Assembly (NCBI GenBank): GCA_030272155.1
Contig: CP126191.1
Location: 6,966,501 to 7,030,500 of the forward strand
Direction of reading: 5' to 3'
Source: Tetradesmus obliquus
Lineage: Eukaryota; Chlorophyta; Chlorophyceae; Sphaeropleales; Scenedesmaceae
DNA: 64,000 bases
Shown here one piece after another: positions 3,757 through 33,133 of the stretch. Within the stretch, counting starts at the first letter, position 1; every line of letters begins with the position of its first letter. The notes beneath the pieces are model-generated. The model made no database searches, was not told where the DNA came from, and worked only from the letters and a program-made list of their open reading frames with translations. The translations under genes were made by a program, and so were the position numbers.

Positions 3757-5091
3757 TTAGCACGCGAACTTCTTGGCCTGTGCTGTGCAGGCTGGGCCCT
3801 TGGACTTGAGGGCGGTCTTGTACAGGGAGGTGCCGTGCTCACAGGGAATGTAGGTGTTCTCCCACACGCTCTGCACGCAAGCAGCAGCAGCAGCAATACG
3901 ATAAGTTCATGGCAGTTGCAAGTTGATGACATGTTCTAATTGCAAGCCTGATCTGTGAAGAGGGTGCATCTTGTACAGCAATGCTGCACTACAACAGCTG
4001 CAGATGCTGAATGGCGGATGCTGCAGGCGCGTGCTGCACGGCAGCCACTGCTGTAGCACACCCGCAGCTGGCGACCGAGAAAACATGGTTTCACTGCACA
4101 ATATACGCTATTGATGTCTTCCAGCAGAGTGTGCTGAAATACTGTGGCACTGGTGATGCTTCGCAGCTGCTGCTTGCAGTTGCAGTAGCACGGCTGCACC
4201 GCATCTGGGCAGCGACCGCTCACCTGGCTAGCCACCTTCTGGGTGACAGTGCAGCATGCGCCGACCTGGGTGTAGGCACCTGCACACGCAAACAGGCAGC
4301 ACAGCAGGAGGGGCAGGGTTGACTCTTGTGAACATTGAAAGCAGCCGCGTTCCTTGCCCTCAGGTCCAGAAGTGCAGGGCACCCACCACACCACATCTGC
4401 CAGCTGCGTCAACGCTGTGCAGCTGCAGCTGTAGCAACTTAGAGCATTAGCTGCAAAGCAGTTTGGTGCAATCAGGCTTGCTAATGGTGTTGACTGGTTA
4501 CCTACAATCAGCTGTGGGAGCTGAGATGAGCCAGGGCTGTGCAGGCAATGTAAGCAGATGCAGCTGCAGCCCACAGGACTGGCTGCAGCCTTGTCTGCCA
4601 GCTACTGCGATGCTCAAGGGCTACTCACTGGTGACCTGGACCTTGGCATCGGGGCAGCTCTTGAAGAAGCTCTCCTTCATGGTCTTCAGCTGGGCGCAGG
4701 GCACAGCGAAGGCGGAGGTACGGCAGAAGGCAGCTGCGACAGCAAACAATCAGCAGCAAGAGGCAGTGCAGGCAGCAGCGAATGTCAGAGGTGGGTTCGA
4801 AGACGCTCATGCAGGAAGGAGCCGCGAGTACCAGCAAGCTTGCGAAAGCAATGAGACCAGGCACATCGATGTCATTGACTGAGCGACATGCACACAGATC
4901 GCTGCTGATGTAGGCTACCATAGTGTTTTTAAATGTCTACCCGTGCGGCTTCACACCAATGCGCGCTGCTGGTGCGGCTTCAGCAGTGTGAGTAACCAAC
5001 ACATCTTTGCCTGGTTGCACAACTCACCATCGCTGTCAGCGACGCAAGCCAGGGCCACCAGGGCAATCAGGGCAATTGCTGCGGTCTTCAT
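3757..5091 (-). CDS. Small secreted eight-cysteine protein, copy A
   Basis: Four exons encode 112 residues: 5028-5091, 4629-4733, 4224-4279 and 3757-3870. All junctions are GT-AG and the total is 339 bases in one frame. The start is the ATG at 5091, beginning MKTAAIALIALVALAC, a textbook signal peptide with likely cleavage around residues 18-23. The mature part is basic and has eight cysteines in the order C-C-C-CC-C-C-C, with segments CPDAKVQVT, GACCTVTQKVASQ and WENTYIPCEHGTS, ending KKFAC. I do not recognise the family; the spacing does not match plant lipid-transfer proteins. The eight cysteines suggest four disulfides and an extracellular or vacuolar location (inference). The protein is identical to that of copy B at 31725-33033. 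A TATA-like box lies 91-98 bases upstream of the start. The gene is in tandem with, and downstream of, the polymerase epsilon gene. Confidence 0.85.
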
Positions 5092-5181
5092 GGTGATTGG
5101 GCGAGGAGTGGACGGAGAGAGCACGAAGGTGTAGTGTGAGTGCAGGTTGGGAGTGGATGGTTGATCACCGTATGCTGTAGA

Positions 5182-5189
5182 CTTTATAT
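5182..5189 (-). promoter_or_regulatory. TATA-like box of copy A
   Basis: Read on the minus strand this is ATATAAAG, 91-98 bases upstream of the ATG at 5091. Copy B has ATATAAGG at an almost equal distance (93-100 bases), followed in both genes by a similar TCTACAG or TTACAG stretch. The matched position in two otherwise diverged promoters is the support. Confidence 0.55.
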
Positions 5190-6446
5190 TCTCAGAGTAA
5201 GCAGATAGTTGTGTATGGGACTGTGTGATACATCCGCTCATACTCCGACTGTGCCCCTAGGCATTCCTACCTGCTCCCTACGACGCCCCTTTCTCGGTTG
5301 TGGTGCCTTGCGGGCCACGAGACCATAAAACACCCAAAAACCAGTTTGGGCATATTAGTTGTGTCATCGGCTGCGCTGGAACGCAGTGATAGGCGCAAGG
5401 AACGCTTCATGATGGGTAATTCACACACACCCATACGACCCTCGCATGAAGTAAACGGTTTCTAACTCTGGCATCGAACCAATCACTTTGAAAGTTGTTT
5501 CACGTCAAAGTTTGAATCTTGTGCTGTGTTTGAGTGGGTGTAACCCGGCACTTGTCCAGTCAGGCACCTAGGGGTCGGTTGCTGAACGGCAAGTAGGATC
5601 ATCGAGATTACATGCAACGTATCGGCAGTGAATGAATTCTACATGCATCAATGCACACCACGGCTTGAACGAAGGAGCCGAGCAGCTGGCCTTGACCTTG
5701 ACTTGCGATGTTACTTGCTGCAAGTGTGCATGCACGTCCTCACATGGATGCAGGGCTGTATGTACCAAGGAGTTTTCATTGCAGGGCGGTGTGCACGATC
5801 CTGCATCAAGCACTTAAGCAGTTGCGCTATCATGACATGTTGTCAGTGCTGTTAGTGCCAGGCGGTGGTGGCGGGCGCAAGGGCCCCAGTACACGCCGTG
5901 ACAGCTTTCCTCTTATTAAGAGCGTAGTACGTCAAGCCGTCGAGTGAAAAAGGGTTGCAACCAGTCCGTGTGATTCCCAACAGCAGACAGCTGTGCAGCC
6001 TGTACGGTGTTGAGCCCTGCCGCTTGGAGCCCTGCCGCTTAGATATGGTCCAACCAGACACACTTGATGCTTGAGACCATCAGCCTGATGAACCTGAACC
6101 TGAGGTTGCGGTGTCACCTACTTGTGCAACTGCGCACATATACAATCACGAAGCAGCTGATGTGCCTCATGCCTCTGCAGCTGTCCTGTTAACAATGCAG
6201 CAACTCACACACACATTCCTGCAACAGCAACCAAGCCACCGCCTACAGCAGCAAGCCACAGCAGCGTGCTCTGCGACAGTGCCGCACTCTGCCCGCATCC
6301 AACCCACACAAGCCTTGTGTTCAAATGAGCACCCCAGGCACTAGCGCAGGCCGCATGCTGAAGGCTGCCTGATGATGCCACAGTACCTGCAGCTGCTACG
6401 GGAACAGCACGCTGCTGCTGCTGCTGGCCGCTGTCAGCCAACTGCT
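5190..6446. other. Intergenic between polymerase stop and copy A
   Basis: The left part is the promoter region of copy A. The right part should hold the polymerase 3' untranslated region. No gene is recognised. There is a direct tandem repeat of 15 bases around GAGCCCTGCCGCTT near 6011-6041. The stretch 5340-5560 is noticeably more AT-rich than the flanking coding DNA. Confidence 0.5.
5415..5440 (-). promoter_or_regulatory. Conserved upstream block shared with copy B
   Basis: On the plus strand the block begins GGTAATTCACA and runs into CCCATACGACC. A matching block occurs at 33352-33383. Both lie roughly 320-350 bases upstream of their ATG, while most sequence between block and TATA box does not align. 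This could be a transcription-factor site kept since the duplication. Confidence 0.45.
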
Positions 6447-6463
6447 CTACACCACTCCTTGTA

Positions 6464-6494
<31 letters not shown>

Positions 6495-7691
6495 CGGCAG
6501 CTGGCCGTCTGCCAGTGCCATGTTGGCCAGCTCCTGCAGCAGCCTGAACTTGTGGAAGCCAGCCAGGTTGCGGAACACCGCCAGCCGCTTGCGCGCAGCA
6601 GCGCCGCTGATGCTGGCAGCCAGGCCGCCTCCACAGGTGGGGCAGTGGCTGCACAGCCGGCTGGACGTGACCTGTGGCGTGGCAGCACGACAGCAGCGCA
6701 GCACGGCTGCCCTTCAGCTCCCACTCTTTGAAGGCAGCAGGAACAATAACACGCAGCAGCTGCCAGTATCCATTCATGCCAGGTACAGCCTGCTGATGCG
6801 CCTATGCTGCCCGCGTGTCACTTTGAGTTGAGGCTGGCACCGCTGCCGGCTGCCCTTGGCCCTACGCCTGACATTACACACGGTTCTGCTCCTGGTAATG
6901 CGCGCCAGCTAGCTGACCACGTGACAAGCGGCTGTGACGGCATCAAGAAGCATGCAACACCCTTGCAACCCAAGGCCCGACCCGCGCCCCACCTGCTTGC
7001 ACTGCTTGCAGACCAGGTCCTGCAGCGCGTAGTCGCGGATCCTGCTCTGCAGCGCCGCCACCAGCCGCGCCTCAATGCCCGCTGCATCGTAGCCCGCCCC
7101 GCAGCAGGGGCAGGCCCAGCTGCCCGCCTGCAGCGCGGGGTCACGGCACAGGTCCAGCTCGCGGCAGTCGTTGCACTGGCTGCGTATCATAAGCAGACAC
7201 ACGCAGCAGGGGCAGCAGGGTGTGTGGTTAGTCCAGGGCATGCTGCTGTGCGACAGACAGAGCTGGTGCGTGCCTGCAGGAGATGAGCATACTTGCCTGG
7301 TGGGCGCTATAGGGTGCGCCGTGCAGCGCAAGCGCGCGCAGCATGGCGACAAGACGCAAACATGCCTGTCACCAGCCGTGGCTGCAGACCAGCAAGCAAC
7401 ACAGTCTTCAAGACCCTCAACCGCCAGCCACGCAGCTGCACAAACCCGCTACAAGTGCGCTGCTGCCTGAGCCAGCCCGCTCCTTTCCCTTCCGCACCTG
7501 CAGATGATGTCGTGCAGCCTGAAGCTCATGCAGGGGTCCACCCATGCGGCCGCCGCGCTGAACTCGTCGCAGCCCACCAGGCGCAGCAGCCGCCGCCGCA
7601 GCAGGCCCACCTCCAGGCCCAGCCCAGGGTCCAGCGCCAGCAGGTGGCCCAGCAGACGCACAAACGCCAGCGCAGGGCTGCCCAGCTCGGC
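6447..7691 (-). other. POLE: Pol epsilon exons 36-38: C-terminal zinc modules
   Basis: Exons: 7498-7691, 6993-7179, 6447-6671. CysA is [13 protein letters not shown] followed by [11 protein letters not shown]. CysB is LVCKQCKQ followed by [10 protein letters not shown]. In other eukaryotes this region binds the second subunit (DPB2/POLE2). The protein ends with a short polyQ run encoded by a CTG tract near 6466-6495, beyond the last family-conserved helix [19 protein letters not shown]. Confidence 0.9.
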
Positions 7692-7701
7692 CTGAGGCGG
7701 G

Positions 7702-7733
<32 letters not shown>

Positions 7734-8551
7734 CAGGTGTGTTGTGGCAAAACAACAGGCAACAGAGGGGACCCCAGCCACGAAGAGCATGCTTCACTTG
7801 GCCGTGGGCATGTTCTGCAGCTTTGTAGCCACTACAATGGAGCAGTATGACTTCTGCGTATAGAAGCCAGAGCTAGCAAGTGCAGGGCTCATCGCGCCGT
7901 CGACACAGGTAGCTGCACAAACACCTCCAGCTGCCACAGTATGCTGCCCCCTGAGCTGCCTGCCTGCACTGCCACATTACGCAGCCCACGGCTCACCTGT
8001 GTGAGGTGTGAGCCCGCCAGCTGGGGGAACACGCAGTCGGGGTGGCTGCTGCCTGCGGGCACGTGGCGCATGATGCCGCTGACGCGGCTCATCACCTTGT
8101 CGCCCCAGCGGCCCCCAACAGCTTCCTGCAGGTAGTCCAGCTGCGGGGCGCAGGCGGGCAACGAGAGTGCATGATATATTGAGCAATGGATGCGGGGGCA
8201 ACAGGCAAAACAGAGCATCCCTCTCCGTGCCACGCAGTCATTCGCAGCTAATATGCATGCAATGCAGAGCATCTACATCTAGGGTGCCGCATAGTGTGAG
8301 CTAGCCAGTGCTGCCTGTATGCTGCTGTAACACAGATGTAAAGCAGCAGCCGCAGCAGCCGCACGCACCTGCACCTGCTCCGCCTGGCGCGCGTCCAGCA
8401 CAGCCTGGCTGCCGCCCTGCGTGGCGCCTGAGGCTGCTGCTGCGGCCCTGTTTGCTGCCTGCCAGGGCAGGTACATCCACTCAGCCAGCAGCAGCACCAT
8501 GTGCTGCTGCAGCGCCCGCGGCAGGAACTCCACCAGGCTCCACTGGTGGCT

Positions 8552-8599
<48 letters not shown>

Positions 8600-11500
8600 G
8601 CAGCAGCAGCAGCAGCAGCAGCAAATGTGTTGAACACACACGCATCGCAGCAGGCACGTCCCACAGCATGAGTAGAGTGTCTTAGCAGGCACACGCGGCT
8701 TCCATCAGCTAAACATCTTGAGCGCAGCATGCTGGTTTGCACTCACGCACTCCCATGCTCCGCTCACCTAAGCTTGGGCCCGCCAGGCGTGCCAATCTCC
8801 GCCTCATCTGCCTCAGCGCCGGCCTCATTTGCTGCTGCTGCGCCGCCTGCTGCGCCTGCCCCCGCCGCCTCCCACATCTCTGCGCTGACGCTGGCCTCCA
8901 CGCCGCCGTAGTTGAACTCGTCCGCGTAGTGCAGCGCGTGCCACCAGCGCTGCGGCGCCAGCTCCAGCCAGCCCAGGCTGTCGCGCTTGCGCAGCGTGTC
9001 CAGCAGGTAGCGGCTGTAGCCCACTGTGTGGTGGATGAGTATGTGCACCAACAGGTCAGTGAGGACGTAAGCAGGGGTACACAGCAACGTAGTGGTGTGC
9101 AGCAGCTGTGTTGGCTGAGTGGCCCACCAACCTGTGCAGAGCACGAAGCCATCTAACTCATTCTCACAATAGCCCCAAGCAAAGCGTGCTAGCGGCAGCA
9201 CTCAGCCCCTGCTCCACTGCTGCATGCATAGCCTGCAGCCGCGCCACGCACCTGCGGCTGCCAGGTTGCGCTTGCCAGTGTAGATGAGCACGCTGCTGAA
9301 GTCTGCCGCCACCACGCGCGCGCCCAGCTTGCCCATCTCGTCCAGCAGCAGCACAAACAGGCGCTGCATGAGCCCCAGCAGCGCCTTGTGCAGCAGCGTT
9401 TGGTGCACCACGCTGCTGGGGTTGCTTACCCAATGATACAGCTGCTTCAGCAGGCTGTCCGCCACCATGCTGCTGTTCTGCGTGGCGTCAGCCAGCCAGG
9501 ACTGCAGCAGGGCAGGGCGCAAGCAGCAGAGAAGTTCAAGTTAGGCAGTGCCATCAGGCAGTGAAAGCGCAAGGCAAGCCAGCAGTGCCCATGTCCTACA
9601 GGCCGGTTACGAGCCGCCACAGGCCAAGCATTTGGTGTCTGGACGCATTGCACCTGCTTGGAGACCAGCTGTTGCGTTCATGCGTAAAGCTCACCTGCAC
9701 CAGTCACAAGCGCTTAAACCACACTGCAGACCTGCCTACAAACACAGCTGCAGCTGCTTCACGTAACACGCCATGTCACTCTGCAGAGTGCACGTTACTC
9801 GGCATGCCACTCTGCAGAATGCTCAATATTCTGCATGCCACTCTGCAGAATCCTTTATATTCTGCATGCCACTCTGCAGAATCCTCGATGTTCTGCATGC
9901 CACTCTGCAGAATGCTCAATATTCTGCACGCCACTCTGCAGAATGCACGATATTCTGCATGCCACTCTGCAGAGTGCACGATATTCTGCATGCCACTCTG
10001 CAGAGTGCACGATATTCTGCATGCCACTCTGCAGAGTGCACGATATTCTGCACGCCACTCTGCAGAGGACACAAAATAATTCACTGCTTGGCATTGGCAC
10101 ACACGCCACACATCTGCGAAAACACAACATGGCTGCTTCACCACACACCCCATATGCATCTCTCACCTGCACTAGGTCCCGCAGCACCTTGAAAGCAGGC
10201 GCAGCAGGCCCCAGCAGCCCCTCCAGCGTGACAGCGCCAGCAGCCTCGGCCAGCTGCGGGGCCTGGTCCACAGCAGCCACAGCCAGGTGGTGCAGCTTCA
10301 GGTGCAGCACCACGCCGCGGTAGCAGCCGGGCCGCGCTACATGTGGTGAGGGCGCGTCCTCTTGCAGGAACACGTCATCCTCCGGCAGCGGCTCGATACC
10401 TGGTGGCGCGGCAGCAGCAGATACAGAGCATGTACGATGCATGAGCACTATACATTTAGAGACAAGCTAGTGGCACGGTCGGCAGGCCAGCAGGGGCAGG
10501 CGTAGCAAGGTTGGCAGCAGCAGGGTAGCTTAGACCATAACGCTGCAAGCTGCTACTAGTGGGGCATTAATGCTGCCTGCATCGTGCCACATGAGCTGTG
10601 CTGCAGCCTTCAAACTGTGGCAGCTCCAGCTGCTCCACCCGCCCCCCCCCCCCCCCCCGCTCACCCAGGTCGGGCAGTGCGGGGTCTGCCGCCCACAGCA
10701 CGTGCTTGGCCTCCCGCAGCCGCCGCGCCATGAGCACGTCAGCGATGTTCATCAGCGCGTCACGCCCCAGGCCCGCCAGCGGCACGTGCGCGTAGCGCGT
10801 GAGCGCGGCGCGGTCGCGCAGCCATGCGCCTGATGCTGCCACTGCCGCCAGCGCGCGGCGTGCGGCGCGCAGCTGCCACTGCAGCGCTGGGTACCTGCAC
10901 CGCAGCAACCAACAAGGTTGTGTCAGATGCAGCGCTAGTGCGAACAACATACCTCCCATTCCGTCAAGCACGACTGCCTGGTTAGAGACAATGATGATGA
11001 GTCCGCTGGCCACATCTTACACAAGGGTTGCCATAGTGCCTGCAGAGCTGGCTATGCCCTGTTCAGCAGAGCTGGCTATGCCCTGTTCAGCAGAAGAGCA
11101 TCGCACACAACGCCACTGCGCCGCGCCTCACTTTGCATCATCCACAGCCACAGGCTTGTCCACGCAGGGAAAGTCACCCAGCAGCGGCATGTCCTGCTGC
11201 AGCCGGCTGCTGCCGCCCGGGCACTGCACCGTTGCCACGCAGGGCCCGCGCTGCGCCTCCCTGTACGCCGTCAGCGCGCGCTGCACGTGGCGCAGCGCCA
11301 CCAGGTGCTCCCGCGCATACTCCACACTGAACTCGATGCTCGACAGCGCCTGCACCTGCAGCAGCGGCAGCAGCGCAGGTTTGGTGTACACTTTCGTCAT
11401 TACATACCAGGGGGTTAACATCGCAAGGAAGGAGCGGCGTTTCTCTTACAGGCGGCATGACACCAGCTCGCAGGGCCAGGACATACTTGCACTGCACGCC

Positions 11501-14335: not shown

Positions 14336-14372
<37 letters not shown>

Positions 14373-15009
14373 TGCCACGGCCCGCGCGCCACTCACCGCT
14401 GCCCAGGTCGCCGCACCACTTGCGCAGCCAGGCGCGGGCCACTGGCGGCTCCGCGGAGAAGATGGAGCAGGGCACGGCGCGCTCGCTGGTGGGCGCGCCC
14501 TCGGGGCGGCGGCTGATGACGTAGGCGCAGTTGAGGCCCTTGTCCTTGATGCGCTCGTCGCCTGGTGGCGGTTGAGATGGCAGCAATTCCGTGGCGATGG
14601 TGCAGGCAGAGGAGGTGCGAGAGAGATACAATCAGCCGCTAGGTCCTAAGAGTAGCAATGGCTTGCTGCAGCACAGGTGCCAGGCGCCTGCCTTGCAGTA
14701 CCTGCTGGCCAGAGATTCACGCAGCGGGCTGTTTGACCAGCAGGCCGTTTCTGTGCTCTGTCCTGCACCCTGCTGGCCGTGGCAGCGCCATGCACTGCCG
14801 CGTCCCTGCAAGCTGTGTGCAGCTCTTGCTGTTGCCGAACTCACCCAGGAAGAGGGAGAGGCGTTTGGCTGTGGTGATGGCGCAGCTCTTCCTGTCTCCG
14901 TACTCCTCCATGGCCTTGCTCATGGTGGTGGACTCGCTGATGTACTCCATCAGCTCGCCGTCAGTCAGGTCCACGCCCTGCAGCAGCAGCAGCAGCAGCA
15001 GCGGCAGCA

Positions 15010-15053
<44 letters not shown>

Positions 15054-18000: not shown

Positions 18001-21000
18001 AACCGTTTTAAACGTATGTATCTGAAGCTTGTGCGTGCTCGAAGCATTGCGTCAGCGCCACGCACCCACTCCATCTGCCGCAGACAGGTCTTCCCCGGCT
18101 TGTTGAAGTCGCAGGCGGCGCAGTCCTCGTCGTTCACAATGGCCGCGGGCTGCAGCCTGTTGGTGAGGATGATGTTGGGGTACATGGCCGCCACGTCCAA
18201 ATGGTAGATCAGCGGCACCTCCTCCCTGCAGGCGCGCCAACAGCAGCACGGGTCAGCAGGCGTGGCTAGTGCTGCCTGCACCTGGCAGCATTCAACGCTT
18301 GTCTGCACAACACTACGCGGCGCGCATCTTTTGCCTAACAGCACCTCTACCTCTCGAGCCGAGCCTCACAAAAACAGCACGCCGCCACTGGCCACAACTC
18401 CCCAATCCACAACCCACCACAAACACCCAGTCTGCAAACACCCCCACCTGTTGGGTGCGTCGCGCAGCGCCTCCAGCTGCTCCCTGATGTCTTTCTTCAC
18501 CTCCTCGTAGTTGCCCACGTCGCCCAGCTCCCACCCGGCATCGTGCTTGATGGCGTAGCCCAGGTCCCTGTCCAGGTGGTCGATCAGGCCCTGGTAGGCG
18601 GCAGCCGTGCACTTGAAGCGCGTGGGCAGGTCGGCGCGGAACACGCCGCTCTGCAGCGCCTCCACCTTGCCGCCGATGTAGGTCTCGCTCTCCAGCAGGT
18701 GGTTCTTGTACAGCACCTCAGGCTGCGGCAGGCACAGCAGGCAGTCGAGATTGCTGTTCAAGCAGGAGAGGGAGCTGCGCTTGCTGCCGTAGCAGTCAGG
18801 ACACTGGCATTTGAAAAGAACCGGGTATCACACGCCATGCACGCACGCGACTTGACCCTGAAGTTGCATACACAGCAGCTGCAGCATGCGGGCCTCACCT
18901 GTGAGGTGTGCTTGTTGGGGCAGATGACGTTGGCGCGGTACGCCTCCACCATCAGCAGCTGCTCGCACAGCGTGCCACTGCCCTTGCGCAGCACCTCATC
19001 GGGCGGCATGGGGATAATGGTGGCCAGCGAGAAAATGAAGGGGTGGATGTAGCTGGTGGCAGCAGCAGCAGCAGCAGCGGGGCAGCGGCGGAGACATGCA
19101 AGGGGCATGTCAGCAAGTGCACCCAAGGCCGCTTGTTGGTGCTGGCAAGGGCCGTGGCTGTGTGTGCATCGTGCTGTTGCATGCACGATGCGATGCTGCA
19201 AGCTGTAACAAGATCAGACCTACCTGGCGCGCTGAACAGCAGGCAGGCAGGCACCACTTGACACATCTAGCCAGGCATCGCCGGCACCGCTATACCTGGG
19301 CCTCATCAATGCTGAGTCATCGCTGCCTGTGCTTCTGTTTTGCTGTCGTTCTCCTTGCTGTCGTTCTCCCCCATCCCCAGCCCACACAATCATACACACA
19401 CACACACACGAACTCACGTCATGTACAGGTAGTACGTGGCCACGGCGTCTGACACGGAGTAGCTGGCCATGGCCTGGGGCGTCTCCGCGGCCAGGCGCAC
19501 CATGTCCTCGGGCGCCACCTCCACAGGGTCGTAGCCCAGCTTGGCCTTGGTCACAGCCTGGGGGGGGGGGGGGGCAAGCAGTGGCAGCAGTGACAGCAGT
19601 GATGAGAGGGCTTTGACTGTGCAGGTGCCAGCAGGCAGAGAAGAGGGAGGGCCGCAGCACCGGCGCACACGCATACTCAGCAACAGCGTGCGAGCGTGTA
19701 CAGCCTGCGCCATATTGCAGGCATCACAGCTGCAGATGAACCTGCTGCCGCCGGTGCGTAGCCGGCCGCTGCCTGGTGTCCAGGGTGCACATACAGCTGC
19801 TGCCATGCCAGTATATACTGCACCCCACCCTGCCCTAGCTCCACACCCTCCTCCCCCACCTTGAGGCCGCGCTGGCCCTGGGGGCAGTCAGCCATGCAGT
19901 GGGGCAGTTAGCCATGCCAGTACATACGCAGCAGTGGCCCCACCCTAGCTGCACACCCATCAAGCCCCACCTTGAGGCCGCGCTGTCCCTGGGGCAGGTA
20001 GCTGTCGCGGTTGACCCAGTGCAGGCAGTCCATGTGCACGCAGGCCTTGCTCAGGCACTCGCCGCCGCCCTGCCCGCACTTGAAGCCCAGCTCGGCCGCC
20101 ATGTCCAGGCCGTGCACCGCAGCCCGCGCCTCAATGAAAGGGTAGTCAAAAAAGTCGCCGTTGTAGGTGACCATGATGCCCGGCTTCACCTGCACAGCAG
20201 CGCGGCCACAGCTCACTTGCTTTTGTTTGTTATCTGTCGCCGCACACTGCCGTTACTGGTGAGAACTGCAAGCAGCATTTCCGGCACAGCCACTGCTTCA
20301 AGGTCATGTCTAGCAGCCCAGCAGCCCAGCAGAGGAGTGGATGCAACTCTCAAACACAAGCAGACACCCAATTTAACAGCAGCCCATCAGCGCGTCCCGC
20401 GCCGCACCTCGCGCATGTGGTCGAACCAGGCGCGCAGCGTGGCCGCCTCGTTGGGCGTGTTGATGACGGTGAAGGGCCCCTGGTACTCGGGCTTGGGCGT
20501 GTACTCAAAGTCTGCGATGTCGCCGCCCACCACCTCGCGGTTGACGATGAGGAAGCCCTTGCGGTCGATCATGTAGGAGATCATGAACACCTGCGGGCGC
20601 GGCGCAAGGACAGGAGCAGTGGTCATTGGTGATGCCGGCATTGCGAGTTTGGGGTGCAGGCAAGGTTTGAAGGGGGCGGAGCTGAGGGTGGTGAGCAGCT
20701 GGCACAGGAGGTGAAGCTGAGTCGCAAGTGGGTTGGCAATGACCCGGCAACATGCTCAGCCGCCCCAATGATGTGTGACGCTGGCGGGTGCACCACCAGC
20801 TGAGAACAGCCTCCAGCTGCATCACAACACAAACAAACACCTGCCTGCCGCTACATGCCTCGTCTCCACTCACCTGATCGTAAGCAGCGTTGGGGAAGCG
20901 CAGCGGCAGCTTGGTCGTCTCAATGTCAAACGCGCAGATCACCGGCTCAGCCCACCGCAGCAGGTCGGGGCGGTGCGTGACGGTGGTCACTCCATCCTTG

Positions 21001-23682
21001 ACGCGCACGGTGTACCAGCGCCCGGCACGGATGTCTGCAGCAGCAGCAGCAGCAACACAGGCCGCGCGCCACGACAGCGGTGATGCACATGCTTTCGTTA
21101 GGAACTTAACGCTGTGCCTGATAGTCGGGTGTGAGACATGTGTAAGCAGCGTGGTCGAAGAATCATAACTGCAGCTGCTCGTCTTGCGTGCTCAGGATGA
21201 TCAGGAAGCTGTTGAAGTACTCAGCGTGTAGCAGCGCCCAGCCGGCTGCCGCGCACCTGTGTCAATGGCGAAGCGCACGTGGTAGGGCACGTCGTACTCG
21301 CGCATGCCCACGATGCACTCCAGCACGTCCTGCACAACGCAGCAGCCACGCAACAGCAGCAGGCAGACAGCACACGCTTCATCAGGTCAAGGCAACATTA
21401 TCTAAGGTAGTTGTCGTGCAGGTGCAGCGAAGCGCTATGCTGCGCCAGGCATCAGCATCACTGCAGGCTGCTGCAGCTGACAAAGCAGCACTGTCACGTG
21501 CATGCACCCATACCAACACTGCGCCTACCTTGGGCCTGCCGTCGCCTCCCATCTGTGCCGCCTGCAGCGCCGCCACCGCGCTGGCCATGGCGCTGCGCCT
21601 GCTGTTGGCGCTGATGGTGGGCTGCACCTCGCGCCGCACATCCATGAGCTGCTGCACGTTGAAGAAGGACACCTTGAGCAGCTTGCGCTGCAGCCCAGAC
21701 AGGTGGTTCTTCTGCAGCACACAGCACGCAGCAGGCAGCAGCATAGGCAGCACATTGCACTAGGCACACTGTGAGTTTGCACATCACAGCACCAGGGCAC
21801 AAGATTTGCAGCACAGCGTACGCCCAGCCAAGCCAAAAGGGGCATTGTAAGAATGTGGCAGTCCACAGCACATTGCAGCAGCGCTCAGCGTGCCCATTGC
21901 TCACTGGAGCGCATGTTTGCTGTGAGACGCATGCATGTGCAAGTGTCTGCTGCGTCTGCTGGCTGAGCACTGCGGCACCCTGCTACCACATGCACTCTGC
22001 AACTGTGCCAGCTTTGCTGCCGGTGCTACCGCTGCTGGCATCTGCTGGTGCCAGCGTCTGCTGCTGCTGGCGTTCGCTGCTGCTGCTGCTGTTGCTGCTG
22101 CTGCCACGCACCAGGTCCAGGTCCTCGCGCATGACCACCTCCACCTGGCGGATGCGGCCCTCAAACTTGCGCCGCAGCCACACCTCCACATCCCGCTCAG
22201 CGTCATCCTGGTGCAGGCAGCAGCAGCATGTGTGGCAAGCTTGTTGATGATGTTGTGCCTGCCGCTGTCGATGTTGCTTTGCTGCTTGGCTCTCAACCAC
22301 ATCCCATGCCGCGGCTGCTGCTACCTCTGGCCAGCAGTCGGCGGATACTTTTGTGCAGCCTAACAAGGCGGGCCTGCTGTGGCAGCCAGGAGAATCCTAA
22401 CGCGCCGCGTTCGTCACTACTCCACTGCTGGTGTTTGCTGGCTGCAGTACAGGAGTGTGCTGGGGCTGCCGCTGCTCCTTGCGGCCTCACCGTGACCTGC
22501 AGGTAGAAGTATGGCGCATGCGGCACCCTGGCCTTGAACATGGAGCCATCCTGCACACAACAGCGGCAACGCAGCAGCAGCGTCTTGATTGTGTCGCCCA
22601 ACCCCCGCGCTCATCATCATCAGCAACCAACAGAGAGGTGGCGGCCAGTGCGCCATCCACAGGTCAGACTGACCAAAGTGCACGCTGCAGCTGTTCTTGC
22701 TGAGTCACTGCATAACAGCATGCCTGCATCTTCTGCAACGCATGTGGCTGTTGGAAACAACAACAACTAGAGCCTGCGATTCACCTAGCCCGTGCGCAGC
22801 TCAAGGTGTGAGCATCTGCTGCCGCATGCTAAGGCTGCCAGTGCAGGAGCCAGGCTGCTGCTGTGCTGCCCCACCTGGCACTGGAAGTAGCAGTCCACAG
22901 CACTCAGCATCTGCCCAGTGTCCTTGTCCTCAAAAGAGGTCTGCAGCCAGCACAGCACAGCCACAACAGAGTACAGCGTGAGCTATGCAGCTGCTGAATG
23001 CTACACAAGCTGCCGATGGCAGCAGGAGGCAATGCCCATCAAAAACCATGCCAGCACATGAGAACATGCATGTGCCATCCGCATGGCAGAGCCTTATTGC
23101 TGATTCAAAGGCTGCAAAGGTGTCATTGGCAAATGAGTACAGCGGCTGTGGGTGCGATTGTTTGCTGCCTGCACCGCACCGTGGTGAAGTTGAGCAGCCA
23201 GCCCAGCCTGTCCTCGCCCTCAGTGAACAGCGGCCAGCCCAGCTGCGCCTCCAGCACGTCTGCAGCGCGCTGCTCCAGCAGCTGCAGCATGGCAATATGA
23301 TTTTGGCATTGACGGGTTGACTGTCATGATGAGTGTCATACTTTGATGTGTTTGATGGCAGTGAATGTGGTTTGCTGCGAAGCCATGCAACTGCATGCAG
23401 CCTGTGCTGCTGGTATCCCATTGAGACACCGACCTCTGCCATGTGCTGCACATGCATGGTTCCTGTGCACCAGCCATGCCATGCAGCTGCATGTGCGCGC
23501 ACCTGGGGCTTGTTGCTGTCATCACCACCACCAGCCTGCCCCTGCTTGATGTAGTTGCCGTTCATCTGCTTCCTGTACTTGTTCACGCGGCCCCTGCCCC
23601 GGCCGCGGCCACCCCCGGCGTCATCCTGGCCCTCCCTGTAGGAGGCGCCCATGCTCTTGTACTTGTTGCCACGGCCCGACAT
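6447..23682 (-). CDS. POLE: DNA polymerase epsilon catalytic subunit, complete
   Basis: This is the family-B replicative polymerase that copies the leading strand in the nucleus. A frame-consistent model of 38 exons, all GT-AG, gives about 2,339 residues, close to the 2,200-2,300 usual for the family. The start is the ATG at 23682 ([14 protein letters not shown]) and the stop is at 6447-6449. Visible in order are an Arg/Gly-rich N terminus, the 3'-5' exonuclease motifs ([33 protein letters not shown]), the polymerase motifs ([38 protein letters not shown]), the Cys-rich segment [13 protein letters not shown], a degenerate second polymerase half and two C-terminal zinc modules. All catalytic acidic residues are present, so both synthesis and proofreading should work. 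Introns average under 300 bases and carry CAG/CTG, poly-C and minisatellite repeats. The gene is head to head with the SMP-C2 gene. Exon lists are in the four block entries that follow. Confidence 0.95.
6466..6495. repeat. (CTG)n tract in last Pol epsilon exon
   Basis: Pure CTG on the plus strand encodes the polyQ tail of the polymerase on the minus strand. It lies after the conserved domain, so length changes should be tolerated. Confidence 0.9.
8550..8623. repeat. Long CAG tract in Pol epsilon intron 33
   Basis: About 74 bases of CAG with one CCG interruption. On the transcribed strand it is a CTG run that ends directly at the exon 34 acceptor (GCTGCAG), taking the place of a normal pyrimidine tract. 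Confidence 0.9.
9771..10068. repeat. 31-bp minisatellite in Pol epsilon intron 31
   Basis: About nine and a half head-to-tail copies of a 31-base unit that begins ATGCCACTCTGCAGAAT. Copies differ at a few positions (AATGCTCAAT, AATCCTTTAT, AGTGCACGAT). Each internal unit holds a perfect inverted repeat, GCAGAAT or a near variant facing ATTCTGC across seven bases. The array lies in the 665-base intron between exons 31 and 32. Confidence 0.95.
10642..10658. repeat. 17-base poly-C beside a splice donor
   Basis: On the transcribed minus strand this is a G17 run starting five bases after the GT of the exon 30 donor (GTGAGC then G). Similar G runs follow the exon 20 donor and, as a C run, precede the exon 11 acceptor. 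Confidence 0.9.
14977..15053. repeat. CAG tract ending at Pol epsilon exon 22 acceptor
   Basis: About 75 bases of CAG with a few interruptions (GGCAGCAGGAG). On the coding strand it is a CTG run reaching the acceptor CTGCAG of exon 22. Confidence 0.9.
15651..15661. repeat. 11-base poly-C at the exon 20 donor
   Basis: On the minus strand the donor reads AAG|GTGGGGG and continues as a G run, so the run forms most of the intron 5' end. Confidence 0.85.
19560..19574. repeat. 15-base poly-G (C run on minus strand)
   Basis: On the minus strand it is a C15 pyrimidine tract leading into the exon 11 acceptor, CCAG|GCTGTG. Confidence 0.9.
19802..20000. repeat. POLE: Tandem duplication of the Pol epsilon exon 10 end
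   Basis: Two units about 109 bases apart (near 19802-19890 and 19911-20000) share GCCATGCCAGTA, CCCTAGCT and ACCTTGAGGCCGCGCTG. The right unit is the real 3' end and donor of exon 10 (GQRGLK|GT). The left unit is an intronic copy that still carries a donor-like GT. Confidence 0.8.
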
Positions 23683-24434: not shown

Positions 24435-27400
24435 ATGCTGTACAGCTTGCTGCTGCTGGTCGCTGCAGCTGGCGCGCTGGCATGGGCAGTGTCAGCAGTT
24501 GTGCTCAGGGCTACCAGAGCCAGCGGCAGGTGGGCAGGAATGCCTTCCATGTGGTTGTTTCAGGCTTTATCATTTCACGTGTGTTCACCAAGCTGTTTCA
24601 TAAGCCTTACAACGATGCAGCTGAAGCAGAGCCAGCCTGAGATGAAGCATATGCAAAGCTCTCCTGCTGTAGCACTTGCAGCCAACACCACAGGCGCACC
24701 TCAGCGGTCCTGTTGCTCACCAGACGCATGTCCATCCGCAGGCATGCCCTGGAGAGTGCAGAAGCGAAGTGGCAACAGCAGCTGCAGCAGCAGCCAGGCG
24801 GTTGTGTGTTTGAGAGCTTCACCCTGGGCTGGCTGAATGTGCTGCTGCGGGTAGGTGCATGCAGCACACAACTCGGACTGCTCAACCAGCTGGGCACAAG
24901 CCACGCAGCAAAGCCTGCATTCTGTGGCACAAGCCGCATTTACACAGGCACCAACCAACATGCCACATGCATTGCAGCTGGTAGGACAGGTGCCGGTGTT
25001 GCTCTTTTAGGAGTCACGCAAGCAGCTGCCTCTGAAAGAGCCGTGGCCTGCAGTGAGGCAGCAAGCTACTGAATTGGCGCAGCTGCATTTGGGCGGGTTT
25101 GCAAGCATTGCAGCAGCTGATATACAATGCAAGTGCTGCCATTTTGCAACTGAACACGCTCGCCTGCATGGCTGCGGCTGCAGAGCCTGTGGACGCCGCT
25201 GCTGGAGAAGCACGTGGCCGGGCTGACCAGCGAGCTGATGCAGAAGATCTTCAACGAGGTGGGAGGCCTGTTGTGCCACTCACACCGCACATGTACTGGT
25301 CAAGATGCCTGGCATTGTCATTGCTCAAGGCCAGCAATCCGCAACAGCTGCAGGCGCACAGCAGCTGGCTTGCAGTAGGTAACATCACATGCAGTGTAGT
25401 TCATCCTATGCTCACCAGCAGCGGAGCCAGAGGGAGCTGCTGCCGGCTGTGGTGTGGCTGCAGGTGCTGGAGAAGGACTCGCACAAGGCGCCCTGGAAGT
25501 ACATCTCCACCATCAGCGTGGAGCAGCTCAGCTTCGGGCTGCTGCCGCCAACCTTCCAAGGTACAGCGCAGCGCCAGCGCGTAGAGCAGCAGCAGCTCTC
25601 ATACGCAATATTGGAGCAGCAGCTGTGATTCACAACGCCGTGAGTCAACCTAATCATATGACGCAGGTAGCGCTGTAACAGTTGCTGCTGCTGCTGCTGC
25701 TGCCAGCTTTGCCTGAGTCATGCCATGCCGCTCCCCAACATGATGGAGTCTGCCGCTCTGCCTGCTGCCAGCCGCGGTGCTCAGGTATGACCCTGCAGCC
25801 TCCCTGCTCAACGTGGGCATGGACGTGGCCTTCACCAGCAACAGTGCGCAGGCAGTGGTGAGCGCTGCATGGGACCAGCAGCATAACAGCAGGAGACGCG
25901 GCGATGGACATGCGATCTGAACAACACAGCAGCTTAATTTGAGCAGCACGTAGTTGTTTGCAGATGCCGGTGGTGCTTTCTGGAGAGTTGGCTGCCACAA
26001 GGCCTGCCAGCAGCGAAAGTGCGCGCGCACACAGTGCTGCTCCTGCAATGTGCTTATGCCAACTTCAAGCCTCCCCACGTTGATGCTGCTGCTGCTGCTG
26101 CTGCAGATCCTGGTGAAGACGCGGGCCATGAAGCTGCTGGCGCCCCTGGCGGCGCGCCTGGAGGCCACACACGTCAGCTTCAGGGGCCGCCTCAACCTGG
26201 GCCTGGCGCTGTCGGCAGAGCCGCCAGGCATCGCGTAAGCCGCAATTCTTTGCCTTCCTGCACGCGCATGTCACCTGCACGCTTGCGCAGCAGCAGGTGC
26301 TCGTGGCACTGCAGCATGATGCTCGCTGTGCCGTTGCATGCGGCTAGCAATGCTGCGCGCAGCGCTGAGCAGCCCACCATGTTGCTTTATGTGCAAGATG
26401 GTGAGTTGCATAGCTTGCAGCAGCACCACTGAGGTGATTGCTGTGGCTGTTGCTCTGCCGCTGCAGTGGCATCTACTACTCATTCGCGTCGCCGCCGCAC
26501 CTGGACATCGCGGTGCGGCCGCTGGGCACGCCGCTGCCGGCAGAGTTTGACGGCGGCATCGCGGGCGCGCTGCAGGTGACGGGCTGGCGTGGGTGCTGCT
26601 GCCTGCACAACAGCGTCCCCACTGTCTGTTTTGCAAACAGGGACAGTGGGTTGGCAAGCAGACGTTTGCTGTGTGTCACGGTCAACCAGCAACTTACGCA
26701 GACACTCTTACATGCACCATGCACGCCACACAGCCACATGCTTACAAGCTGCACTGAGCATTATATGAACTGCTGTTCTGCTGCCGCTGCTGCTGCTGCG
26801 CAGGGTGTGCTGCGCCGCATCATCAGCCGCCGCATGGTGGAGCCGCAGCGGCGCTTCTTCGACCTGCACCGGCTGTACATGAACAAGCACATCGCACGGG
26901 TGAGCGCACGACAAGCATGGTGGGGGTGTCGCATGTCTTGGCGGAGCTGCCAGCTTGGCAATCCATTGCTGTCTAGGCAAGCAAGCCACATGCTGCTTGC
27001 AGATGTTGCCAACGCAAGGAACAGGGGGTGTTGCATGCCATACAATCGGTACTGTCTTGGTGGTCACTTGCCTTGCAACCTCTGCTGCTGCAGGTTGGCG
27101 GCCCTGGTGGTCTGCTGCGGCTGGTGATCAACTGCGCCAAGCAGCTCTCACCGCCAGCAGCAGCGCAGAAGCAGCAGTCTACCCAGGGGGCTGCAGCAGC
27201 AGGCACCAGAGCAAGCAGCGCTGGCAGCAGGCGCATGTCTGAGGCAGCAGCCGCCAGCAAGGCCAAGCAGTCCAGCTACTGCCAGGTCAGGCTGGGGCAG
27301 ACAGTGCTGCGCACACCCATCGCCCACCACAGCGCAGCAGAGGATGCGGTGTGGAACTGGCAGCTCAGCCTCGCCCTGCCGCTAGATCTAGCGCAGCTGG

Positions 27401-29652
27401 CCACAACTCCCCCTGCAGCTGCTGCAAGCGAGGCCACGGTGTGCTCCTTTGCCGTGTACGAGGCGCAGACTGTGGGGGAGCCGCTGCTGCTGGGAAAGAC
27501 GCGGGTGAGCAGGCCGGCACGAGCTAGCCGTGTTTTGCGCTGCATTGAGCTGCTGTGGTGATGTCAGACTCGAGGCACGCTGATTTGTGCAACATTGATG
27601 CCTGGCTTCTGTGTTCTCCTGCACAGCGCATAACCAGCGGCATGGCCTTGTGTCCGGTAGTCAGGTAGGTACCAAACCCAGCTGAGCTGCACACATGCTC
27701 ATCTACGTGCGGCTGCTGTCGCGTGCTGCTGCCGTGAGCTGCTGCGCAGATCTACCTGCCAGCGCTGCAGCTGCTGCCCAACGCGGAGCCGCGCAGTGTG
27801 CTGCTGCCGCTGAAGGGCGCCGCCAGCAGCAAGGCAGCGCTGCACGTGGCCGTGGCTTGGCTCAAGTCCACAAGGCAGCAGCAGCAGGGCAGGCGCAGCA
27901 CAGGCGATGCAGCCCCGCCAGCCGCGGCTGCAGACGCACCAGCAGCAGCAGCAGCTGCTGCTGATGCAGGGTCATCAGCAAGCACGCCTATGGTGTCTGA
28001 GCTGCCCAGCCCAACGCCTGCTGCTGCTGCTGCTGCTGCTGCCGCTGCTGCTGCTGCACGCCATTCAGTGCCTGGCAAGTCAGTCACCTGGCATGATGAG
28101 GTGAGGGCTTCTCTGCTGTTGGAGTTGTGTGCAGCTTGGCGACGGAGCACTTGCTGCTGTGCTGGGATACGGCTGCGTGTGTTGCTGCAGGTTGCAACGC
28201 ATCCACGACGCATGCCATGCAACAGGCTGTAGCACTGGTGGCTGCGGTGTGAGGTGAACAAGGCGCGAGCTGTATTTGACTGACCTCTCTTCTTGGCGGC
28301 GACTGCTGCTTATGCTTGCAGAGTTTCAGAAGGCTGCTGCAAGGCGACGCGGCAGCTGAAGCTGCTGCAGCAGCAACACCCACGGCAGCGCTCAGCACAG
28401 CAGCAGCAGCAGCAGGCAGCCCTCTACAGCAGCGCATATCTAGGTCTGCTGGGGCGAGCCCAATAAGCTCAGGCGCAGGCAACCTGCCTCCTGCAGCATC
28501 GGCAAGGCCAGGCAGCGGCAGCAGCAGCCATAGGCGCTCAGCCACGATTGACTTGTCCAACCTTGGCAGCAGCAGCAGCATTACAGGCCCGCCGCTGCCT
28601 GCAGCAGCGGCAGCCACACCAGATAGGTCGGTGAACAGTGGGCCTGGAGATGATGGCGTGCATTCAGCGCGTGCATTGTTTACAACATCAGCAGCAGGCA
28701 ACAGTCAGCCGATCGGACAACAGGATGGGCCAACCGCTGGCAGCAGCTGGTGGCCCAGCAGCAGCGGCTGGGGCAGCTGGCTGGGGCTGACAACCAGCGG
28801 CGGCACTGGCAGCAGCAATGATGCACAGCCTGCAGACAATGGTGCTGCAGGAGGTGCGCCTGCTGCTGCTGCTGCTGCCAGGCCTGCGCCAGAGCAGCGA
28901 GTATCTGGCGGGGCAGCTGCAGGGCCTGCTGCTGGCAGCAGCAGAGCCAGCAGCCCGCTAGCGCTGCTGGCAAGCGCGGTGCAGATGCAGCGCAACGTTG
29001 AGCAGCAGCAGAGCCAGGTACTGCAGCTGCAGCAGCAGCTTGCGCGCTTGAAGAGCAGCCACCAGCAGCTGCTGCAGCAGCAGCGCAGGGAGGCACGGCA
29101 GGCTCTGCTGCGGGGAGGCCGCTTCCTGCTGCACTGCGCAGACGGCACCACGCAGCAAGTTCTGCTGTACCTCAGCAATAGCGAGCCTGCTGCCGCTGGC
29201 AGCAACAGCAACAGCAGCAGTGCATGCAGCAGCAGAAGCAACAGCATGAGTGCTAGCCAGCAGCAGCAGCAGCAGCAGCAGCAGGTGTCTTTGCTGCAGG
29301 AAGCGCAAGGCACAGCTGGTAGCGGTGGCTGCTTGGTGCTGGCTGCGCTTCCCAGCAGTGCTGATCTGCAGCAAGCCACCAGGCGCAGCAGCGTGGCTGG
29401 TGCTGCGTCAGCAGCTGTGTCGCAGGCAGCAAGCTGGCTGCACCTGCGCAGCGACGCTCAGCCCGCTGCTGCTGCTGATGCGGCGGTGGCTGCCAGCGCC
29501 AGTGGTGCTGCTGCGCCTGCTAGGCGCATGGGGCGGCAGCAGCGCAAGCAGCTGGCGCAGGCAGTGCTGGAGTGTGGTGAGCTGCAGCTGGAGGCACTGC
29601 CGCTGCTGCAGGTGGTGCCACTCAGCAGCTACCTGGGGGTGCAGGCTGGGAT

Positions 29653-29692
<40 letters not shown>

Positions 29693-29926
29693 CGAGGGTT
29701 GGTGAAGAGTGCGGCCACAGACGTAGCAGCTGGCAGCATCGATAATGCGACTGCGGCAGGCGCTGCAGCATGCAGCTTGCAGGATGAAAGCCTTAGTGTG
29801 CGATTCCAGGCAGCAGATGGGACAGTGCAGGCCCTGGCATTGCAGGTGCCTGCTGTGGGAAGTGGGAGGAGCCGGAATGAGTGGGTGTTTGCCCTGCAGC
29901 AGCTGACACCGTCAACCCAGAGCTGA
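24435..29926 (+). CDS. Membrane-anchored SMP-C2 lipid-transfer protein
   Basis: Twelve exons give 1,063 residues: 24435-24529, 24742-24850, 25184-25258, 25464-25560, 25772-25857, 26107-26234, 26467-26575, 26804-26899, 27094-27504, 27627-27656, 27750-28100, 28322-29926. Residues 1-30 form one hydrophobic anchor (MLYSLLLLVAAAGALAWAVS). Residues of about 50-265 match the SMP fold of E-Syt and plant synaptotagmins: FESFTLGWLNVLL, ISVEQLSFGLLPPTFQ, VSFRGRLNLGLALS, SGIYYSFASPPHLDIAVRPLG. A C2-like domain follows (GGLLRLVINCAKQL to VWNWQLSLALP). The SMP tube carries lipid between membranes, so a role at ER contact sites is likely. The last exon is 1,605 bases of Ala/Ser/Gln-rich sequence with a Gln-rich coiled-coil near 28980-29100. 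Exon 10 is the least certain junction. The anchor-SMP-C2 order is seen in the sequence; the contact-site role is inferred. Confidence 0.85.
28020..28056. repeat. CTG tract encoding polyalanine in the SMP-C2 protein
   Basis: CTG/CTGCCG repeats in exon 11 are read in the GCT frame as a run of about 13 alanines between the C2 region and the last exon. Confidence 0.85.
29651..29692. repeat. CAG tract encoding polyQ in the SMP-C2 protein
   Basis: Read in the CAG frame as a run of about 13 glutamines. A second, shorter polyQ run lies at about 29260-29284 in the same exon. Confidence 0.9.
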
Positions 29927-31724
29927 GAACCCAGCAGGATGCTCCCTGTGCACTTGCAGCCAGCGGCAGGACACAGCTGCTGGGCGTGTACACATGGCCA
30001 CGGATTGCCCCAGCCATCCTGGCGCCACTGCCCACGTGGACCTGGTGTGCGGCGGCTGCCTGCAGAGCACCATGTATAGCTGGCCAGGCGATCATCGCAT
30101 GATTATCATCAGCTGACGGTCAAGTTCGCTTACTGGGACGTGCAGAGTGGGGCTGTTGGAAGGAGGAGTAGCCGTACACACTGACGTGGCATGGGTAGCA
30201 CTGCTGCACGGCTCGCTCCAAGGGTGTGCTTCAGATTGCAGAACCATGTGCATGCTAGCGCTACTAGCGCTAGTAGCGCTGCTGGCATTTGAGGGTGTCT
30301 GCAATCTCACCAGCTGATGTAGGTCGATCTTGTGGCTGTGGCGGCAGCATTGGCTGTTGACAGAGAGTTTGCATTATACATGCAAGCAGTGCAGCAAAGC
30401 GGGCTTCGAAATGGCTGTGAGTGGCTCACCTTTCATGTGGTTGTGGAGAAGCAGCAGCAGTTGAGCATGCCGATTGCAACTGCAGGCAGCATGTGTCTGG
30501 CGTCATCAGTGGGTGTGCTGCTGCTGCTATTACCCTGCTGCCTCTGGTGGGGGTGCCAGGGCAAATTAATCAGTATTGCAGCTGTGTACGACCGGTCGAA
30601 AGGTCGGTTCAGATGATGGCGCAGGGCTTACTTGCAACTTATTGGTGCATGATCAAGTAATGTGTTACTGCAGCTGCAGCTGCCATGTGTATTCAGTGGT
30701 TTAAAGCTTCATTCGACTGCTTGGACTGCTGGCTTGGATTGCCGTGGCATGAGCGTATTGGACTGCTGTGCCATGAGGGAACATCTGACTGCCGCGGCTC
30801 TGGCGGGGCCTTTACAGCAATGTGAGTGAGCATTTTGCATGCAGCTATCACAGAACGTACTGTCTTTCCTGCAACTCTTATACTGCTGCAACGACATCAA
30901 CAGAAGCATCTGGTACTGGCACCACCCAGCATACATACACCGTCTGTTACACAATTAGCACGATGCCTGCAACAAAACTGATGCATGCCCCAGCTGGCCC
31001 AGCCAGCGTCTGCCTTTGGTTCACCCCAAAAAGGCTGAGAACAGACAGCCGCCACATCAAGGAAGAGCAGAGTTATCCCAGGAGCTGATCAAGGTAGTAC
31101 ACACAACCAACACATGGCATTAGTACAAGCCACAAGCACTCCATAATTTGCACAAACCCATGCCTTGGCAGACTATACAAACCTCCCACCTGAGCAGGCA
31201 AGGGTCACAGCACTGCCACATATTGTTGTCATCGAGGCAAGCACGATTAGTAAGCTGTTGGGTTGCAAGCCGAAGCAGACACCTGGAAGCAGCCTGCACA
31301 ACAAATGTGTGATTCCAACGGTTGAGCGCAGTGAGTAAAGCAAGCACAGACAAACATGCTGCCCTGCAAAGTGCAAGGGCAGGCAATGCGCTGACACTCA
31401 TTTCTGTCACTTCACAGGTTGTGGTCCCAACATACTGTCCAAATTATGTGGCATCTGCACACCAGCGCCAAGTGCCAATCACTCGACTGCTGGGTCACTT
31501 GCCTATACACAATTGGCACACAGAATCACTTATGAACAGTCTCATGGCAGCAGCAGCTGACAAGCAGCGGTACGTGCTTGAGTTCCGAGTACAGAGGGAA
31601 GTTCACAGCACAAAAGTAGCTGCATGCTGCTGCTGAGCACCATGATGCTACATACTATCGCAATTGCGAATTCACAACTGCGCACAGAACAGTAGCGACA
31701 AGGGCATCCGCAAGCTGAGGGTGC
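29927..31724. other. Intergenic, convergent 3' ends
   Basis: This holds the 3' regions of the SMP-C2 gene and of eight-cysteine copy B. It contains a 24-base perfect palindrome at 30257-30280 and a 20-base sequence at 30354-30373 that also occurs at 339-358. Open frames at 30332-30616 and 30421-30660 have no family resemblance. No RNA gene is seen. Confidence 0.5.
30257..30280. repeat. 24-base perfect palindrome
   Basis: Three AGCGCT blocks separated by ACT and AGT read the same on both strands over 24 bases. It lies in non-coding DNA about 330 bases after the SMP-C2 stop codon. Confidence 0.9.
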
Positions 31725-33033
31725 TTAGCACGCAAACTTCTTGGCCTGTGCTGTGCAGGCTGGGCCCTTGGACTTGAGGGCGGTCTTGTACAGGGAGGTG
31801 CCGTGCTCGCAGGGAATGTAGGTGTTCTCCCACACGCTCTGCACGGCAAGCAGCAGCAACAGCAGCAGCAGTTTGGCTGGTTTGTTTGTATCACAAAAAG
31901 CTTTGCATCACAAAATGTTGTCAGGTGGATGCTACGCCAGGCTGGGCAGTGCTGCACTGCTGGCAGGCTGATTTTGATAGCAACACACAACACAAGCTGC
32001 CGTCTGCTGGCAGAGTACACTGGAACGCCATGGACGGGTGGAACTCCGCAGCTACTGCTGGCCATTGTAACAGTGCGCCTGCACTGCGTGTGGGCACCAA
32101 CCACTCACCTGGCTGGCCACCTTCTGGGTGACAGTGCAGCATGCGCCAACCTGGGTGTAGGCACCTGCACACGCAAACAGGCAGCACAGCAGGAGGGGCA
32201 GGGTAAGCTGCCTTGAACATCACCAAAACAGCAGAAGGATGGTTTGCAGGCTGAGAGAATGAGGGCACATGTGTCATCAGGTTACATCTGCCAGTTTGGT
32301 TGATCTTTGCACCTGCAGCTGCTACACTCCGAAGCGCCAGCTGCAAGACATGGCTGTGGTGCAGGCTCGCCATCCATTGACTTCACTGCGATATCTGCAG
32401 TGTGCTGTGAGGAGGTGAGATAGGCTAGGTGTGCAACAGCTGGCATGTAAGCAGATGCAGCTGCAGCCCACAGGACTGGCTGCAGCCTTGTCTGCCAGCT
32501 ACTGCGATGCTCAAGGGCTACTCACTGGTGACCTGGACCTTGGCATCGGGGCAGCTCTTGAAGAAGCTCTCCTTCATGGTCTTCAGCTGGGCGCAGGGCA
32601 CAGCGAAGGCGGAGGTACGGCAGAAGGCAGCTGCGACAGCAAGAAATCAGCAGCAAGAGGCAGTGCAGGCAGCAGGGTTGAACGTCAGTCGTAGACCAGA
32701 TGAAGACTTCCGATATTTGCGGTCATCAACGCTGCTGTTAGTGTTATCTGGCACAGAATGATCTGATGAGCTGCCCAGGGAGGCCAATGCTGTACAGCTG
32801 CCACGTGTTGCAAGCATGTACAGCAAGTGCGCGCTGCTGCAAATGGCCCTGTGAAGCTGAACAAACAAGCAAGTTTGGACGAGGGCATCAACGGGTGCAA
32901 TTGCAAAGCGCTACGGAGGTGTCACTCGACCGATCTCAGATCATCCATCACACACGCAATCGCACTCACCATCGCTGTCAGCGACGCAGGCCAGTGCCAC
33001 CAGGGCGATCAGAGCAATAGCTGCGGTCTTCAT
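31725..33033 (-). CDS. Small secreted eight-cysteine protein, copy B
   Basis: Exons 32970-33033, 32526-32630, 32109-32164 and 31725-31838 have exactly the lengths of copy A (64, 105, 56, 114) and encode the same 112 residues, signal peptide included. The coding sequences differ at nine third positions: five in exon 1, none in exon 2, two in exon 3 and two in exon 4. Introns are mostly unrelated in sequence and length, except around exon 2. The start is the ATG at 33033, with a TATA-like box 93-100 bases upstream. The gene lies downstream of CDT1 on the same strand. Function is unknown; a secreted disulfide-rich protein is inferred from the signal peptide and cysteines. Two expressed copies with no amino-acid change argue that both are functional. 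Confidence 0.85.
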
Positions 33034-33125
33034 GGTGATTGGATGCGGGGCTGAAGAGCTGTGGATGTAATGGAGAGAGGAGGGATGGCGGGTATGTTGC
33101 TGTTGCTGATTGCTGCAGCTGTAAG

Positions 33126-33133
33126 CCTTATAT
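33126..33133 (-). promoter_or_regulatory. TATA-like box of copy B
   Basis: Read on the minus strand this is ATATAAGG, 93-100 bases upstream of the ATG at 33033, matching the position of ATATAAAG in copy A. Confidence 0.55.

Follow-up and report, generated by a model that had tools for sequence, protein, structure and literature searches.

Small secreted cysteine-rich proteins are in general short, carry a signal peptide and an even number of cysteines in the mature chain, have a narrow taxonomic range and form diversifying families. The subject of this work is a pair of genes, A and B (the twins), in a 64,000-nucleotide stretch of the genome of the green alga Tetradesmus obliquus (the window), located on a contig of 11,144,458 bases; the genome searched comprises 17 contigs and 104.66 Mb. 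Their product, which appears to be secreted, shares the first four of these features, but instead of a diversifying family the twins are two copies encoding an identical protein, with codons that suggest high expression. The other described system to compare is that of the green-algal non-specific lipid transfer proteins (nsLTPs) of the CrLTP1/CrLTP2 type, which (PMC9832785) are likewise of the secreted type, with eight cysteines, several introns within the coding region and two copies in one species. According to that source, CrLTP1 and CrLTP2 are adjacent, whereas the twins start 28 kb apart, and the nsLTP eight-cysteine motif (8CM) is C-Xn-C-Xn-CC-Xn-CXC-Xn-C-Xn-C (that is, C-C-CC-CXC-C-C), whereas the twin protein has the order C-C-C-CC-C-C-C.

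The best overall explanation, to which we give a probability of about 60%, is that A and B are old paralogues of T. obliquus making one identical small secreted protein. Three processes would keep them alike: purifying selection on the protein; gene conversion in short tracts with genomic DNA as the donor, seen most plainly around exon 2; and, probably, selection favouring the codons that highly expressed genes use. The product, cationic and locked by disulfides, would be abundant in the wall, the periplasm or the medium, and two co-regulated, homogenised copies would raise its output.

Two genes for one cysteine-rich protein

Both genes lie on the minus strand and have four exons of 64, 105, 56, and 114 nt in the same order. 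Gene A (3757–5091) comprises exon 1 at 5028–5091, which encodes the putative signal peptide, exon 2 at 4629–4733, exon 3 at 4224–4279, and exon 4 with the stop codon at 3757–3870. In gene B (31725–33033) the corresponding exons are found at 32970–33033, 32526–32630, 32109–32164, and 31725–31838 (with stop), and the two start codons are 27.9 kb apart. All six introns are of the GT...AG type, with phases 1, 1, and 0 as derived from the exon lengths. Once spliced and translated, the two coding sequences (339 nt) differ at nine positions, every one a synonymous third position, and give one and the same product of 112 residues. With about 81–95 synonymous sites among 336, nine random changes would all be synonymous with P ~3e-6 to 1e-5. 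A database protein (P0001, ‘hypothetical protein OEZ86_011758 [Tetradesmus obliquus]’) is exactly these 112 residues, and this annotated product supports the splice model. The pair of genes is real and already annotated, and the first-pass annotation of the window, made from the letters alone, was right about the four-exon twins, their equal exon lengths, their 112-residue product and the nine synonymous sites.

The N-terminus of the protein is hydrophobic (the best 11-residue Kyte–Doolittle mean is 3.12), with a plausible signal cleavage near residue 22. The mature protein would have some 90 residues, 9.7 kDa, a pI of ~9.1 and a charge of ~+6.8 at pH 7, and contains no N-glycosylation motif. 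Its cysteines are residues 25, 34, 48, 65, 66, 85, 103, and 112, i.e., C-X8-C-X13-C-X16-CC-X18-C-X17-C-X8-C, and a ninth, C16, falls within the signal peptide. The eight mature cysteines presumably form four disulfides. These features bear out the signal-peptide-like start and the eight-cysteine mature protein proposed at first pass. The view that the protein fits no family has also survived: the twin protein, and a hand-joined paralogue described below, gave no Pfam family up to E 10, no NCBIfam family matched the twin protein, and neither did any PDB sequence when it was used as a single query. A two-row profile against PDB sequences returned ten rows, the best with E 0.34, which we take as chance.

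Intron identity, probable gene conversion and predicted expression

The twin introns are a mosaic of decayed and conserved sequence. Identity between A and B in the intron interiors is 41% for intron 1, 60% for intron 2 and 64% for intron 3, compared with shuffled means of 43%, so that only intron 1 has an interior at the shuffled level. The earlier view that the bulk of the intron sequence has ceased to align therefore fits the interior of intron 1, is too strong for introns 2 and 3, and overlooks the conserved blocks at the borders. Decay in the intron interiors and in the flanks marks the twins as probably old duplicates. At the borders, by contrast with the interiors, intron 2 begins with 81 identical nt, and matches number 44 in the final 47 nt of intron 1 and 42 in the final 45 nt of intron 2. 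One block, a proposed conversion tract at 4548–4778 in copy A and 32445–32675 in copy B (minus strand), spans 231 nt with two mismatches and is made up of 45 nt from the end of intron 1, the whole of exon 2 (105 of 105 identical) and 81 nt from the start of intron 2. Counting intron columns only, 93 consecutive identical ones flank exon 2 (12 + 81); when the columns, treated as independent, were permuted 10,000 times, no run exceeded 32. Shorter identical runs, of 42 and 37 silent columns, terminate at exons 3 and 4. The synonymous differences are also unevenly spread, with 5, 0, 2, and 2 in exons 1 to 4: exon 1 has five in 17.2 synonymous sites (exon 1 against the rest, Fisher p 0.017), and exon 2 none in 23.5 (chance of none 0.046).

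Could purifying selection, with codon selection added, keep the twins identical with no gene conversion at all? The nine synonymous differences out of nine are what it would predict, and so is a codon usage that leans toward that of light-harvesting complex (LHC) exons (see below). Selection on the protein is nevertheless insufficient, because the identity extends into the introns flanking exon 2, where the run of 93 identical columns stands against interiors of 41–64%, and the contrast between exons 1 and 2 at synonymous sites also speaks against it; we regard selection acting alone as improbable. The strong purifying selection suggested at first pass remains a good description of the lack of amino-acid change and fails as the sole cause. 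More generally, an identical protein with diverged introns should not be taken as pure selection.

Gene conversion very probably contributes to the identity of the twins, and short-tract conversion would be the simplest cause of the silent-site pattern. The donor would be genomic DNA and not complementary DNA (cDNA) because the tract crosses intron borders; conversion mediated by cDNA is ruled out by the entry of the shared block into the introns on both sides of exon 2. A structured RNA within the conserved intron block was considered and rejected, as nothing in the whole window reached an Rfam gathering threshold and the intron 2 part folds no better than its shuffles (z -0.23). A permissive Rfam scan of the gene B region only (31600–33500) gave one match (31712–31919, plus strand) with 20 bits against a cut-off of 70, taken as chance. 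The twins seem to offer a small example on which gene conversion at the scale of single exons could be measured in a green alga of industrial use.

Codon usage and the upstream regions suggest strong and shared expression. Codon adaptation was measured relative to LHC exons, using 13 of the 15 LHC loci and, for comparison, nine of the 11 guanylate-cyclase loci, those with stops inside the match being left out. Gene A scores 0.634 and gene B 0.653. The LHC exons themselves lie between 0.423 and 0.832, with a mean of 0.732 that is inflated because the weights were derived from these very exons; the guanylate-cyclase exons lie between 0.29 and 0.634 (mean 0.486). When the twin protein was recoded with guanylate-cyclase codons the mean was 0.464 (standard deviation 0.048), and none of 2000 recodings reached gene A. 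Upstream, on the minus strand, gene A has a TATAAA (5183–5188) and gene B a TATAAG (33127–33132), 97 and 99 nt ahead of their respective ATG codons. Farther out, at about 310–346 nt upstream, both genes have a 32-nt element (5406–5437 for A and 33343–33374 for B, minus strand, 27 of 32 positions identical), with a local score of 39 that none of 500 shuffles reached (maximum 29). With up to two mismatches the core of this element occurs genome-wide only at the twins; at three mismatches there are two further sites, and five for a reversed control pattern. No shared element beyond chance was seen downstream of A and B (82 of 200 shuffles reach the score). The suggestion made at first pass that two copies are kept perhaps for dose would be compatible with this codon and promoter evidence.

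Several points weigh against this picture of secreted, converted and highly expressed twins. The signal cleavage site was placed by eye and not by a signal-peptide program. The permutation test takes alignment columns as independent, part of the identity at the intron 3′ ends may reflect splicing constraint instead of conversion, and the case for conversion comes from one gene pair in one genome. Codon bias is an indirect sign of expression, and the LHC and cyclase ranges overlap, the best cyclase exon equalling gene A (0.634) and two LHC exons falling below it. Finally, the 32-nt element may be a relic of the duplication and not a regulatory site.

A small family and its possible role

As a single query the twin protein found itself alone among 5.8 billion proteins, in a search that depends on shared words of five residues and may overlook distant relatives. 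Within its own genome there is one paralogue, a diverged copy with six cysteines on contig C11, a weak match (E 0.15) that was judged real on reading the locus. By eye this copy consists of a start-like piece, a single exon fusing exons 2 and 3, and exon 4; its introns, one following exon 1 and one preceding exon 4, agree with those of the twins in place and phase, and intron 2 is absent. After manual joining, for which the twins served as guide, its alignment to them shows 36% identity (BLASTP E 4e-17). A fairer, independent test is the comparison of P0001 with P0002 (A0A383VGC7 in UniRef, an uncharacterised T. obliquus protein), which gave BLASTP E 7e-12 and 38% identity over 63 columns. In the C11 copy an in-frame stop interrupts the exon 1-like piece close to its end, and the reading frame is broken in exon 2, where the frame of P0002 is intact; it is apparently decaying, or else sequencing error could be responsible. 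Beside it (L017:4435–4475 and 4593–4711) the first part of exon 4 is repeated ~160 nt upstream, by eye a partial exon duplication.

A profile search added P0002, P0003, and P0004, bringing the family to four proteins, P0001 and P0002 being those from T. obliquus, and a third database search found no relatives beyond these. The twins, the C11 copy and P0002–P0004 have in common an FCRTS start and shared cysteines, to which the C11 copy adds the intron places. P0002 has six cysteines, matching 25, 48, one of 65/66, 85, 103, and 112, and so lacks C34 and one of C65/C66. The same two are missing from P0003 and P0004, both of which seem incomplete C-terminally. Because both cysteines are lost together in P0002, a pairing of C34 with one of C65/C66 in the twins is suggested. 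With the C11 paralogue only 36% identical and two cysteines missing, the family diverges faster than the twins imply.

Other candidates did not hold. A locus on the same contig as the twins (L010/L016, E 0.017) looked attractive by eye and was dropped after its family-profile E of 0.11 among 1300 segments proved chance-like; L011, L012, L015, L024, L027, L028, and L029 were dropped on the same test, the best of them being L012 (E 0.029). This family profile contains near-copies of the C11 piece and is not independent of the C11 match. Pattern searches gave 30 matching stretches in a collection of viral genomes and 94 in one of prokaryotic genomes, none confirmed as a relative. The strings A0A383VGC7, OEZ86_011758, OEZ86, and OEZ85 occur in no paper of the literature collection searched, and among the papers listed on the secretome, extracellular proteins or lipid transfer in this species or genus none was about the twin protein by title or abstract start, which is not proof of absence. 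As far as found, the family would be very small and taxonomically narrow.

What could such a protein do? To judge from the sequence, it is a candidate for one of the abundant extracellular proteins of T. obliquus. A bolder version of this proposal would see an undescribed disulfide-rich secreted family with an alpha/beta fold of its own, confined to Scenedesmaceae or their close kin, in which the two main copies are actively homogenised by gene conversion on the scale of exons and supply a major component of the wall or the extracellular space; we hold this as a tentative possibility, well short of even odds.

Somewhat less likely would be a secreted defence protein, cationic and disulfide-rich, directed against competitors, bacteria or grazers. 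The pI of 9.1, the charge and the eight cysteines would suit it, as would relatives confined, among those found, to T. obliquus proteins plus P0003 and P0004. Many defence peptides diversify between copies, however, and the twin copies are identical; the lack of any family match also speaks against defence, which we consider unlikely.

The record of the twin protein carries the UniRef name ‘Bifunctional inhibitor/plant li...’, which points to an nsLTP, i.e., a carrier of lipids outside the cell. Besides the likenesses to algal nsLTPs given above, its size and basic pI are as in the land-plant nsLTPs of that study (PMC9832785). Membership was nonetheless rejected on the cysteine motif and on Pfam. 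Three cysteines precede the CC pair and there is no CXC, so the 8CM is not matched, and no Pfam LTP or trypsin-alpha amylase model matched up to E 10; the latter test is weak alone, as only half of the algal nsLTPs in that study had the LTP2 motif (PMC9832785). The predicted model, of moderate confidence, is mixed alpha/beta, where an nsLTP would be all-helical (four or five helices) with a lipid cavity, and the algal nsLTPs are, according to the abstract (PMC9832785), larger and of lower pI than the land-plant ones, in contrast to the 9.7 kDa and pI 9.1 found here. The twin protein may still bind lipid despite the failed motif, but a green-algal nsLTP is a doubtful identity for it, of about the same low standing as selection acting alone. 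The automatic name looks wrong, the protein being probably a misnamed orphan, and function studies relying on that name would start from a doubtful premise.

The predicted fold has moderate confidence (predicted local distance difference test, pLDDT, 71.4; predicted template modelling score, pTM, 0.60), and an earlier single-sequence model (pLDDT 58.7) was excluded from the fold searches, in which no row reached the trust line. The weakest proposal, a secreted ferredoxin-like binding protein or small enzyme of the dimeric alpha/beta barrel type, agrees with the order beta-alpha-beta-beta-alpha...beta of the predicted model and with VIA-align rows that include olivetolic acid cyclase, hydroxynitrile lyase and antibiotic-biosynthesis monooxygenase folds, yet none of these is at the trust line and we find it very improbable.

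Other features of the window

Around the twins no partner gene was seen, 20 of the 76 open reading frames (at least 170 amino acids) having been scanned with one sub-threshold Pfam match. The term undescribed system, put forward at first pass, is too strong: the twins belong to a small family that had not been described, which is no new kind of system. An open reading frame at 20508–21191 (minus strand) weakly resembles the DNA polymerase family B exonuclease domain, with E 0.00063 and 19.6 bits where the cut-off is 23. At 9772–10066 there is a tandem array of a 31-nt unit, CATGCCACTCTGCAGAATGCACGATATTCTG, with 9.5 copies and 91% matches, the period of which is not a multiple of three. Many CAG/GCA trinucleotide arrays are also present, both inside and between open reading frames, at 8552–8623, 14980–15052, and elsewhere.

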